Shown here: positions 11,509-58,783 of the stretch, piece by piece
How positions within the stretch are numbered: position 1 is the stretch's first letter
Layout of the letters: the number at the start of each line of letters is the position of its first letter
Source: Paenibacillus sp. Soil750
GTDB lineage: Bacteria > Bacillota > Bacilli > Paenibacillales > NBRC-103111
Reading direction: 5' to 3'
Length of the DNA: 64,000 nt
Assembly: GCF_001428045.1 (NCBI RefSeq)
Contig: NZ_LMSD01000041.1
Span: 251,847 to 315,846, forward strand
Made by a program: the position numbers and the translations under genes
Notes under the pieces: generated by a model
Databases searched by the model: none
The model's input: the letters and a program-made list of their open reading frames with translations, nothing else
Told to the model about the DNA's origin: nothing

Positions 11509-11529
11509 CTAGTAGCTACTATGATGAAT

Positions 11530-11715
11530 TAACTGTATTTTCTGCAGGTAATTACAGCTGATTTTCGCATTTATGAGGAATAACTGGATTTCCTACAGCT
11601 AATTGAGCTCATAATGATTGAAAGGAAGGAATTTGGCTAAATTAGCTGTGCATTTTACATTTAATTACTTATTTTGGTTGAATTACAAAAAAAGATGTGG
11701 GTTATCCAGTTAGTT
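11530..11715 (+). repeat. Palindromic four-unit repeat element, copy 1
   Basis: Four 24-nt units start at 11530, 11581, 11643 and 11692, spaced 51, 62 and 49 nt. Each resembles TARCTGKA-8 nt-CAKSTAAT, an interrupted palindrome able to form a short hairpin; the fourth unit is the most diverged. A second copy with the same unit order and spacing (51, 62, 51) is at 38138-38325. The 27-nt spacers of the two copies are also alike (an AGCTGA word near their start). Non-coding in all frames. Confidence 0.75.
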
Positions 11716-11785
11716 GTCAGCGAAAGGTGAACAAGTGGTTCGGTGAGTGAGAGTGTGGACAACGTGTAACCGACGGATGGTGGTG

Positions 11786-38021: not shown

Positions 38022-38140
38022 TATCCGGGCCAACGCGCTATGTTCAAAGTCAACTGCCGATTGTGGTGGTTGGCTTTTTCGTGCTTATTCCATTGTTGCA
38101 GGGGTTCAGGCAGCTGGATGGCCTTCAGTGGGATGATTAA
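38018..38140 (+). pseudogene. Possible remnant: C-terminal membrane segment of a lost gene
   Basis: In a frame different from SelO, starting inside its last codons, about 40 codons end in TAA at 38138. They encode GPTRYVQSQ, a hydrophobic helix (LPIVVVGFFVLIPLLQGF) and a polar tail FRQLDGLQWDD. This looks like the end of a membrane protein. No start or RBS exists. The stop codon is also the first triplet of the palindromic repeat element, suggesting truncation at that boundary. Confidence 0.35.
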
Positions 38141-38325
38141 CTGGATTTCCTCCATCTAATTAAGCTGAAATCCGCCTATTTATTGAACTAGCTGTATTTT
38201 CTACAGTTAATATTCTGCTTCTAGCCCGATTCCTTAAATAACTCTTAGAATAGCTGGACATTTTCCATCTAATCGCCGAAACCCAAGGAATTCGCAAAAT
38301 TTAACTGTAGGTTTTCCATCTAATT
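38138..38325 (+). repeat. Palindromic four-unit repeat element, copy 2
   Basis: 24-nt units at 38138, 38189, 38251 and 38302 (spacing 51, 62, 51). The second unit is a perfect interrupted palindrome (CTGTA-TTTTC-TACAG core). Units share TARCTGKA at the left and CAKSTAAT or CATCTAAT at the right. Same architecture as 11530-11715. The rest of the 38141-38515 stretch is non-coding. Confidence 0.75.
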
Positions 38326-38415
38326 TTTAAGTTGGCCATTAAAACAAGAAGTTTGGCTTTATGGGTTACATAGGATGTGTATTGTTGATACGACAAATGC
38401 ATTTCGTGATAAGTC

Positions 38416-38490
38416 AACCGCCCACCGCCCACCGCCCACCGATCACGGCTCACCGCCAATCGCCCACCGCCAGCCGCTCACGCTCACGCC
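38416..38490 (+). repeat. Degenerate 7-bp tandem repeat
   Basis: CCGCCCA is repeated three times without change (38418-38438) and then degenerates into related CACCGCC/CTCACGC words to about 38490. Low-complexity and pyrimidine-rich; non-coding. Confidence 0.65.
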
Positions 38491-56023: not shown

Positions 56024-58783
56024 ATGGTCCTTATGCGCACTTATAAATCTAAGCTGGCACTATTTCTTGCCGTAGTGTTAACACTAAGTTTATTGCTTAT
56101 TTCAGTGCCAGTCTTTGCCCTGACCTCTCCCACTTCGCAGTCTATTACGAGCCTCTATATGTCCAACTGGACGAATGCCATGAATATTTGGATGGCTAGC
56201 AAGCTGTCTCAGAATGACACGGGCACGTTCGGACCAAGGATTGGCGAGATGCGGATCAGCGATGATTATACGACGAATCAAATCGTTGATTACTCAAGCT
56301 TTTTCCGAAATGAAACCAGCTCGACCAAATATGATCAGCCGCATAATTTCAATTCTGAAGCTTATTACGATAACAACGGGATTTTACGTACCAAATATTT
56401 GGATTATAGCGGCACTAACATGCCGATTACGGTAACGAAGGATTTTGCTATGGTGCCAAATGATAATTTCACGGTTGCAACCTTTACGTTTACGAATCCA
56501 ACAGGCTCTGCTATTGATTACAACATGTTGGAGCAAATTCATGTCAACAATAAAACCAAGGGAGGCACGAATCAAACGAATACGGGCTCCTACGATGCAG
56601 CGCGGAATACCTTATTCGTCAACATGAGCAATTCGGGACAGTATTATGTCGCCCTTGGCGCTTATCAAACAATGGATGGTTATCAGGTGGCTGACGATAC
56701 GCAGTCCTCGCTAGCTGCCTCTGATGTTGCGGCATGGTACACCTTCGACAACAACGGAACCGTTAAGAACAACGCTAGCAAGACAGCTGTAGACATCAGT
56801 GTAGCGTTTCAGGATCGATTTACGATTCCGGCAAACAGCTCAGTCACGCGTTCTTTTGTAGCAACAGTGCGCAATTCACTTGCGAATGCACAAAGCTCGA
56901 TCGATACGGCGCGAGCACAAACAGCCTCCTATTGGTTTACCCAAACCGGAACTTCTTACACAAATTGGTTAACAGGAACCGGTAAACAAACCGTCAACTT
57001 CACGGATACCGGCATCAACGATACGTATAAACGCGGCTTAATTACGATCAAGAACTCCATTCAGCCAACTTCCGGAGCAATGCCGGCAGCAACGAATCCG
57101 ATCGCTTATGGGTATAAGGTTTGGGCAAGGGATTCAGCGGTGACGGCGATGGCGCTCGATCAAGCAGGCTTTACCGCTGAAGCGGAGAAATATTGGTATT
57201 GGCTGCAGGATCGCCAGCTATCTGACGGCAGCTTTAAGACCACGTTCGATTTATGGACTAATAATTATGTTTCTTTTGTCGAGCCTGAGCATGATTCCAT
57301 CGGCATTTTCTTAATCGGCGCTTACCTGCATTACGTAAAGACGGGAAATACGACTTTTCTCAACAACATTTGGACCAAATATAAAAAATCCGCTGATTTC
57401 ATTTGGTCGAATTTAGGGTCTGACCCGTATCAATTCGGCGTGCCGGATAATAGCATTTGGGAGGAGAATGTAGAGTACAACGCCTTCACACAAGCGGTCT
57501 ATGTAGCTGGTTTGGATGCGGCACAGTACATGGCGAGGGCGAAGAGCTTGAACAGCTTAGCCGACGATTATAATGGAGCAGCCAGTAAAATTCGTTCCAG
57601 TATTCAAAGAGAAGATACGTGGAATCCCAAAGGTTTGTGGAATGTCGTGAATAACTATTACAATCGGGCCGTAACAACATCCGGAGGCGCCAATACGTTG
57701 GTAGATGCATCATCAGCGGCGCTGATGGCTTATGGGGTAGTTGACGCCAATTCTTCACGGGCAAGCAGCCATAATAACAAAATAAAAACGAATCTGCAGC
57801 ATGATAACTATGGCATAGCCCGTTATGATGGGGATACCTTCTACTACACCGCATCATTCAGTCCTGCAGGTAATGAAGCGCAAAGCGATGAGCCATCATG
57901 GCCGCAGATGAGTCTCTATATGGCGCTCTATCATCTGGATCGTGGAGAAACAGCGAGTGCTCTTAATTATTTACAATGGGTCGTTTCCCGAACGGCGGTC
58001 GGCTATATGTCAGCGGGGGAAGCGGTATCACGGATTACACTCAAGCCGCTGCCGAGTACATCCGTTGAGCCTGTAACAGCGGCTTGGTTTGTCCTTACGG
58101 CTTTGCAGTATGAAGGGAAAGCGGATATTCGGATTACACCTCCGCAATCGAATAGCGGGGCATACAAAGCAATTACGGTTACAACAACCGTAGCCAATGA
58201 TCTGTCTCAATGGAGCAATGTTCCTTACTATATCGATAAGGTTTCAGACAGTTCATCAAGTTCTGCAGATACAGACATTAAGAGGGTATATGTTAGTAAC
58301 GATGCTAATAATCTATACGTCCGAATCAAAAATAATAGCGGTACCTTATCAGGCTTCAATACCACTCCGCGATTTGGAATGATGGTATACGCTGAGGACT
58401 TTAAGCACAGTGCAGCCTCGAGCAAATCAACAGGCATGTATGGAGGAACCTTAGATCGACCTTTCCAATATTTAGTTGGTCGTTGGAGTGATGGAACGAA
58501 TCTTTCTAAATTTAATGTTCAAAGCGGGAACTGGACATTTACCAACCATATTACAGGAGTCACCATTCCTCAGTGGGACACAACTACAGGCGAGATGGAG
58601 ATGGTCATTCCACTTAGCCAGTTAGCCAGCTCTGCGGTGGCTACAGGGGACTTTTCTAATTTAAATATTGTCTTAATACGTCAAAATCCAAGCACGCTAG
58701 CTTGGACGGAGGACGATAGAATTGCTCTGAATTATCGCATTACGACGACAGGTGAAGCTTGGTACTACGGCAACGTCGAGTAA
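56024..58783 (+). CDS. Secreted GH15 glucodextranase/isomaltose-type exo-alpha-glucosidase
   Basis: 919-residue secreted protein: signal peptide about 1-33; an N-terminal super-beta-sandwich (about 40-330); an (alpha/alpha)6 GH15 catalytic domain (about 340-710) with probable acid Glu480 or Glu481 in SIWEENVEY and base Glu682 in SVEPVTAAW; and a C-terminal beta domain (about 715-919) like the glucodextranase C-terminal module. It should release glucose from chain ends of dextran or isomaltooligosaccharides. AGGAGG lies 7 nt before the ATG. The GH66 neighbours favour alpha-1,6 rather than starch linkages; the exact specificity is inferred. Confidence 0.82.
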   Translation: MVLMRTYKSKLALFLAVVLTLSLLLISVPVFALTSPTSQSITSLYMSNWTNAMNIWMASKLSQNDTGTFGPRIGEMRISDDYTTNQIVDYSSFFRNETSSTKYDQPHNFNSEAYYDNNGILRTKYLDYSGTNMPITVTKDFAMVPNDNFTVATFTFTNPTGSAIDYNMLEQIHVNNKTKGGTNQTNTGSYDAARNTLFVNMSNSGQYYVALGAYQTMDGYQVADDTQSSLAASDVAAWYTFDNNGTVKNNASKTAVDISVAFQDRFTIPANSSVTRSFVATVRNSLANAQSSIDTARAQTASYWFTQTGTSYTNWLTGTGKQTVNFTDTGINDTYKRGLITIKNSIQPTSGAMPAATNPIAYGYKVWARDSAVTAMALDQAGFTAEAEKYWYWLQDRQLSDGSFKTTFDLWTNNYVSFVEPEHDSIGIFLIGAYLHYVKTGNTTFLNNIWTKYKKSADFIWSNLGSDPYQFGVPDNSIWEENVEYNAFTQAVYVAGLDAAQYMARAKSLNSLADDYNGAASKIRSSIQREDTWNPKGLWNVVNNYYNRAVTTSGGANTLVDASSAALMAYGVVDANSSRASSHNNKIKTNLQHDNYGIARYDGDTFYYTASFSPAGNEAQSDEPSWPQMSLYMALYHLDRGETASALNYLQWVVSRTAVGYMSAGEAVSRITLKPLPSTSVEPVTAAWFVLTALQYEGKADIRITPPQSNSGAYKAITVTTTVANDLSQWSNVPYYIDKVSDSSSSSADTDIKRVYVSNDANNLYVRIKNNSGTLSGFNTTPRFGMMVYAEDFKHSAASSKSTGMYGGTLDRPFQYLVGRWSDGTNLSKFNVQSGNWTFTNHITGVTIPQWDTTTGEMEMVIPLSQLASSAVATGDFSNLNIVLIRQNPSTLAWTEDDRIALNYRITTTGEAWYYGNVE

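Follow-up and report, generated by a model that had tools for sequence, protein, structure and literature searches.

The stretch analysed here, a 64-kb window of the genome of Paenibacillus sp. Soil750 (the host), carries two copies of an intergenic element of about 190 bp, in which four short palindromes are held at fixed distances. We conclude that this element is probably a double-stranded DNA docking array of Vsr-like PD-(D/E)XK nucleases with a C-terminal MarR-type winged helix. The link between the array geometry and this protein family is well supported, and the simplest inference is that the partner protein binds the array. We read the whole as a gene-plus-dispersed-site system that would resemble RAYT/REP in its working while being built of unrelated parts, its binding, cutting and spread being what we infer from the data below.

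Geometry and helical phasing of the array

The eight palindrome units that an earlier note had located in the window were all recovered at their positions, and the spacing given there holds for both arrays when measured centre to centre (Table 1). A unit pattern allowing up to 3 mismatches gave 6 matches in the window, whereas 100 shuffles gave 0.02 on average and never more than 1; units 3 and 4 of array 1 are too diverged for this pattern and were recognized by a unit profile. The aberrant last distance of array 1 corresponds to a local 2-bp loss next to the degraded unit 4; in Paenibacillus sp. Soil766 the orthologous array shows 51 bp in place of 49 (51-62-51).

Genome-wide, the same pattern matched 316 units in the host (8.32 Mb in 44 contigs), whereas a reversed control pattern matched 0. 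Scanning 1.235 Mb of host DNA (1.135 Mb in three contiguous blocks and 0.1 Mb picked for hits) with the unit profile yielded 50 clusters, 31 of which have four units, and in 26 of these 31 the centre-to-centre spacing is exactly 51-62-51; the others are 16 single, mostly weak units, two clusters with two units and one with three. The spacing was also observed in 67 clusters from 109 stretches fetched from relatives (Paenibacillus and Fontibacillus, some of which were entered twice), where other four-unit spacings are mostly 1 bp off and one cluster, at 51-73-51, is one helical turn longer, as well as in other families of the order. The earlier note had proposed that the whole arrangement, and not a motif alone, was copied or selected, and had named a lack of further copies or a random spacing as evidence to the contrary; in the host and its relatives neither was seen, and the arrangement clearly recurs as a unit. 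When put in register, 118 non-identical elements gave one common profile of about 190 bp, symmetrised by construction, with a unit consensus of roughly AATTARCTGGA-WWW-NN-TACAGYTAATT. In a sequence-agnostic geometry scan of low sensitivity, (51,62) was the commonest geometry in host contig C1, while other tandem geometries outscored it in host contig C12 and in G160, a complete genome from another family; the scan returned 0 in 200 kb each of G137 and G069, both of which lack this array type, a weak piece of negative evidence. In Fontibacillus phaseoli (L205:5528-6080), arrays follow one another in tandem about 247 bp apart, with neighbouring arrays separated by 83-84 bp (8 helical turns). At ten or more UBA6304 loci (among them L138, L142, L143, L172, L176, L177, L188, L190, L193 and L227) the array sits inside a longer dispersed repeat, many copies of which have GGGTGTCC-type hairpins beside the array.

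Scanning named genomes with the plain unit gave 110 stretches, 109 from Paenibacillaceae and one from Nostoc, a scan that may leave out records very near the host. With a sequence-only model built from 60 elements, the number of hits per genome being capped, matches were obtained in 56 of 104 genomes of the family, 121 of 246 of the order and 26 of 299 of the class; 15 of the latter lie outside the order and are mostly weak, such that they may be due to chance (best E 1.7e-13 and 6.7e-12). G160 has at least 88 elements, and these 88, taken from a capped list, are spread evenly along its chromosome (Kolmogorov-Smirnov p 0.31). Of 17 four-unit clusters in 400 kb of this genome, 12 are spaced 51-62-51, with a different unit sequence. 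Among phage records (50,697) the array had no match, among viral contigs none was confirmed, and a single match was found in 72,556 plasmid records.

The spacers, otherwise divergent in sequence, are traversed by A/T steps about every 10 bp. Taking the spacer columns alone, the A/T period is 10.0 bp, and none of 2000 permutations reached the observed power, whether the profile was symmetrised or, with a mirror-preserving control, left unsymmetrised. Taken on their own, the 19 UBA6304 elements have their strongest period at 8.7 bp, the other 99 at 10.0 bp. The TpA share of A/T dinucleotides is 8% at the spacer peaks versus 23% in the flanks. Moreover, the central WWW of the unit reads AAA or TTT in 405 of 472 units (347 of 396 without UBA6304), where about 25% would be expected were the three bases independent. 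The base pairs that follow are similar in both states, and the two triplets therefore represent an exchange in place and not an inversion. An orientation switching of whole units, suggested by the near-random plus and minus calls of a first profile, was accordingly discarded, as many of those calls reflect the central triplet and not inverted units. In the 118 elements the reversed unit 4 is the closer match to unit 1 in 65 cases and the unreversed one in 36, the remaining 17 being ties; the four units are thus not simple direct repeats, and the array tends towards an inverted arrangement. Taken together, the A/T phasing, the centre rule and the conservation of the units described below point to double-stranded DNA bound on one helical face, and not to RNA.

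A probable nuclease gene linked to the arrays

In the host, in P. vini and in UBA6304 the same protein is encoded between pairs of arrays about 1 kb apart. This likely partner, 223 aa long in P. vini, is probably a Vsr-like PD-(D/E)XK nuclease with a C-terminal MarR-type winged helix. The catalytic domain matched EDxHD/Vsr-like PD-(D/E)XK nucleases in a second-look aligner that re-ranks only Foldseek's own list, and it is on this aligner that the fold assignment rests, Foldseek alone giving no match at E ≤ 0.001. For the P. vini protein Pfam listed only DUF559, MarR_2 and AbiEi_4, all sub-threshold, NCBIfam only a match far below its cut-off, no PADLOC family matched and no sequence relative was found in the PDB. 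In the relatives the source annotations read 'hypothetical', 'DUF559', 'very-short-patch-repair endonuclease' and, once, 'MarR family'. D69, E82 and K84 are invariant in 69 sequences that are 64-88% identical to the query, not a deep sample, and provide the acidic and lysine residues that characterize an EDxHD/Vsr-like active site.

The gene is accompanied by an array with great regularity. At all 30 best-scoring homologue loci fetched, which are the best protein matches and not a random draw, and a few of which are partial (L397, L400, L404), the gene is followed by an array; in 14 this runs over the stop codon, in 15 it is within 10 bp and in 28 within 165 bp, and the two remaining loci have it at 344 and 635 bp. 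In 4 of the 30 an array is present upstream as well, inside the fetched stretch. Overall, the nuclease was found in 185 of the 246 genomes of the order, often in several copies. Taking the protein at E ≤ 1e-80 and the array at E ≤ 1e-3, 86 of these genomes have both, 3 only the protein, 35 only the array and 122 neither (Fisher p 2e-33), a comparison of presence and absence and not of copy number; with the protein at E ≤ 1e-90, arrays occur in 59 of 59 genomes. Outside the order the corresponding counts are 6 with both, 9 with the array only, 13 with the nuclease only (some of them weak) and 244 with neither (p 2e-4).

The host itself has 12 nuclease matches, two of which are pieces of one gene. 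Only the copy on contig C41 is flanked by this array type, on both sides, one other copy having a weak 63-bp match nearby. Relatives carry orthologous cassettes with open frames, for which dN/dS is 0.05-0.10 where computable. Behind several other host paralogues lie palindromes whose sequence is unrelated but which are again phased, with spacings of 52-62-52, 63-62, 52 repeated or 51-51-51. Furthermore, at 29 divergent homologue loci (a thirtieth being too short) there are 29 distances of at most 70 bp between palindromes, and 24 of these fall at 51-53 or 61-63, as against a mean of 0.15 in shuffles. The window type is the amplified one in the host, the other palindrome types having few dispersed copies in the tiles. 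One four-unit array of another type, spaced 51-62-52 and dispersed, lies on host contig C4 at about 142.7 kb. On host contig C12, at about 268.2-268.7 kb, a nuclease paralogue (L423 flank) is followed by nine near-identical 27-bp palindromes with a 52-bp period, an array that at first sight appears CRISPR-like.

The window further contains a lone weak unit at 57210 on the minus strand (profile 16 bits), without partners, which may be a remnant or due to chance, and short imperfect ACCGCCC-type repeats at 38417-38482, about 90 bp past array 2.

Table 1. Arrays and palindrome units in the window (bits refer to the unit profile, mismatches to the unit pattern).
Feature	Position	Strand	Details
Array 1, four-palindrome phased element	11527..11716	.	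centres 11540, 11591, 11653, 11702 (51-62-49)
Array 1 unit 1, TTT centre	11530..11552	+	0 mismatches; 31 bits
Array 1 unit 2, TTT centre	11581..11603	+	1 mismatch; 35 bits
Array 1 unit 3	11643..11665	+	26 bits
Array 1 unit 4, degraded, 2 bp nearer than usual	11692..11714	-	15 bits; compared with Soil766 orthologue
Array 2, four-palindrome phased element	38135..38327	.	centres 38148, 38199, 38261, 38312 (51-62-51)
Array 2 unit 1	38138..38160	+	unit pattern; 34 bits
Array 2 unit 2	38189..38211	+	unit pattern; 32 bits
Array 2 unit 3	38251..38273	+	unit pattern; 31 bits
Array 2 unit 4	38302..38324	+	unit pattern; 32 bits

Function and persistence of the arrays

In the mechanism that we propose, winged-helix dimers would read each palindrome through base contacts in the half-sites, the central A-tract being sensed in the minor groove. 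Four such dimers, 5, 6 and 5 helical turns apart, could stack on one face of the helix, with the DNA able to bend round the complex by virtue of its phased A/T steps. More speculatively, the nuclease domain might cut at or near arrays, and repair might then copy arrays into new intergenic places, a suggestion made because of the parallel with RAYT and REP; the gene and its dispersed arrays would in that case form a self-maintaining partnership, like RAYT transposases and REPs. Among the roles considered in the earlier note, that of a protein-binding array with fixed phasing is well supported by the geometry and the helical A/T phasing, from which we infer the binding itself. The arrays may plausibly be a non-autonomous mobile element, an idea to which the linked nuclease gene lends support.

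Conservation at orthologous places was assessed in 25 pairs of arrays chosen from a flank comparison (137 rows, many of them reciprocal or within UBA6304). In the 19 pairs of equal length, identity is 0.94 in the units and 0.73 in the spacers, and most of the 60-bp flanks match poorly without gaps. The six other pairs, including array 1 of the window with its degraded unit 4, are unequal in length or in how many units were recognized. Plus and minus calls agree in nearly all pairs, L159/L166 being the exception. The loci had been fetched for holding a unit, so that presence is over-represented; arrays are absent at a few orthologous places, including L200/L207 and L124/host. At 140688-140726 of host contig C1 only the central spacer is left of an array that three relatives keep; as aligned, the deletions stop close to the inner edges of units 2 and 3. 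These orthologous-locus comparisons revealed no clean pair of an empty and a filled insertion site, and neither did the host nuclease-cassette locus, where all seven relatives examined lack the cassette. At that locus there is no clean empty site because relatives carry other palindromes in its place, in the form of arrays in L435, L437, L439 and L440 (L439 being spaced 51-51-51) and of palindrome-like repeats without such spacing in L433.

With respect to genes, as called by our own gene finder (which in G160 called only 78% coding), the host arrays with neighbours on both sides (n = 32; open reading frames, ORFs, of at least 240 bp) are 12 convergent, 19 tandem and 1 divergent, and 17 of the 19 tandem ones lie closer to the 3′ end of the upstream gene. 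Keeping shorter ORFs (n = 34), 18 are tandem, 9 convergent and 2 divergent, 3 overlap a called ORF and 2 are at a contig end. Among intergenic regions of at least 200 bp in the contiguous host blocks, an array is present in 5 of the 24 convergent ones, 16 of the 147 tandem ones and 1 of the 60 divergent ones (convergent versus divergent, p 0.007); the figures for G160 are 6 of 14, 9 of 62 and 3 of 24, and the 3′ bias of tandem arrays was not seen there (3 of 9, with the poor gene calling just mentioned).

Several observations weigh against a docking array that is spread by its nuclease. Arrays mostly keep their place between species, so that any movement must be slow, and the only absence resolved at base level (C1, about 140,700) is a loss and not an insertion, given that the central spacer remains and three relatives keep the array. 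Whole arrays tend towards two-fold symmetry but do not follow it as a rule, and the G160 lineage lacks the AAA/TTT centre rule (13 of 72 units). The reading frame of the nuclease gene on host contig C41 (334665-335320) is interrupted, yet the arrays are still there. No array was detectable in three of the genomes that have a homologue at E ≤ 1e-80, and the protein at E ≤ 1e-50 is missing from 11 of 111 genomes with arrays (E < 1e-5). As to the divergent homologues, 14 of the 24 phased distances stem from two tandem arrays, and phased distances occur at 7 of the 29 loci, the other 22 showing none at the stringency used.

The main rival is that the arrays, placed downstream of transcription units, serve the host as sites for scaffolding the chromosome, for insulation or for buffering supercoils, and that the nuclease-like protein, or another wrapping protein, has become a nucleoid protein, with the spread in the past and the sites kept by selection. 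The conserved spacing could equally serve such a role, to which the intergenic location, the nearness of tandem host arrays to 3′ ends, the conserved units at stable positions, the even spread in G160 and the nucleosome-like A/T phasing also lend themselves. We nevertheless consider it somewhat unlikely, as 48 of the 104 family genomes have no array match (with strict filters), the 3′ bias did not recur in G160, and the invariant catalytic residues of the nuclease would be unneeded by a pure scaffold. Those residues, under strong constraint and combined with many genomic sites, could instead suggest defence or addiction, in which self DNA is marked, or the nuclease titrated, by the arrays, and cutting is released once arrays are lost or array-free DNA enters; this would explain why units are conserved at old places. 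It appears improbable in view of the lack of any PADLOC match, of any sign of an arms race in the phage, viral and plasmid searches, and of the retention of arrays in a host whose cognate gene is interrupted.

That the arrays are ordinary REP/BIME or MITE-type repeats moved by a conventional transposase, with the nuclease a bystander, would agree with their being intergenic, multicopy, palindromic and often 3′ of genes, and with the longer dispersed repeat of UBA6304. However, the unit consensus has no GTAG or CGTC tag, the flanking gene product has no Y1 transposase match (the genomes were not searched for transposase genes), and adjacency in 30 of 30 loci with overlap of the stop codon is not how a bystander behaves, which makes this explanation very improbable. 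Least credible of all is a transcribed structured RNA with four hairpins, as the earlier note had also envisaged: a hairpin can form in each unit, and by eye only the stems seem complementary across lineages, but the A/T steps of the spacers follow the DNA helical repeat, AAA and TTT replace each other in place, and Rfam gave 0 matches at gathering score in the window. Array matches on both strands are no argument against RNA, because the model rows have no common orientation.

Returning to the docking array, we tentatively suggest, at somewhat less than even confidence, that it belongs to an undescribed class of nuclease and site, in which a Vsr/homing-type nuclease with a winged helix forms a nucleosome-like wrap on a four-palindrome array and copies the latter to new intergenic places, each paralogue having its own palindromes and the 5-turn and 6-turn spacing being set by the protein complex. 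Such a class would have evolved from unrelated parts to form, in the Bacilli, the counterpart of RAYT/REPIN populations. The system is considered new in that it falls outside REP/RAYT, CRISPR and Rfam and that searches of open-access literature, without most subscription journals and all preprints, gave no description of the element or of the nuclease-array link. If this is true, intergenic repeats of Paenibacillales have a partner protein and a physical logic, the helical stacking of dimers, and the two make a testable pair for how dispersed palindromes persist for long in bacterial genomes and how proteins fix helical spacing over almost 200 bp while leaving the spacer sequence free. The paralogues with different palindromes offer a ready series for recognition studies, and in the wrap-like DNA pattern bacteria may have a compact counterpart of nucleosome positioning that is defined by sequence.

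Comparison with known systems

Like CRISPR, the arrays consist of regularly spaced palindromic units beside a nuclease gene. They differ in having only four, diverged units, spacers of two fixed lengths with shared A/T phasing, and many dispersed copies, and the earlier judgement that they are not CRISPR-like thus stands (cas genes were not searched). With regard to MITEs, which have terminal inverted repeats and target-site duplications at their insertions, the array ends only tend to be inverted copies, and no clean insertion site was found. Compared with the EDxHD homing endonuclease I-Bth0305I, of a type that cuts an allele without its gene and copies itself in, and with Vsr/DUF559 nucleases, the partner is a free-standing, multicopy chromosomal gene with a C-terminal winged helix and an array of its own, and its DUF559 match is below the Pfam cut-off.

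To our knowledge, neither the four-palindrome geometry nor a linked nuclease is among the features of the E. coli RIB/RIP and BIME repeats. As cited in PMC2267715, these are likewise intergenic repeats at the 3′ ends of transcription units, and are bound by IHF or gyrase, that is, by a DNA-bending or wrapping protein. Table 3 of the same source lists Bhal-1 (74 bp), Bant-1 (72 bp) and Clot-1 (74 bp), intergenic stem-loop families of Firmicutes. A pair of units at a distance of 51 bp would come to 74 bp, a likeness of length that we regard as a coincidence of size. The TAACTGA repeats of Beggiatoaceae (PMC4679880) have only a hexamer in common with the array unit.

The closest parallel is RAYT/REP/REPIN (PMC2817692, PMC3733652), in which an enzyme gene is likewise flanked by palindromes dispersed in many intergenic copies. 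According to PMC2817692, RAYT genes are flanked by REPs, REP abundance tracks the enzyme and the palindromes are kept. Here, too, the repeats flank the gene, downstream in 30 of 30 loci, also upstream in 4 of 30 and on both sides of the host copy on contig C41; enzyme presence tracks the repeats (as presence or absence only, in 246 genomes); and, in common with RAYT/REP, orthologous genes keep their place and the repeats change yet stay palindromic. The foot of the repeat is different, the REP tetranucleotide GTAG/CGTC being replaced by unit flanks AATTA..TAATT. Above all, the enzyme of RAYT/REP is a Y1 HUH transposase (PF01797) acting with GTAG-tagged hairpins, whereas the present system would pair a PD-(D/E)XK nuclease bearing a winged helix with four phased double-stranded palindromes that contain A-tracts.
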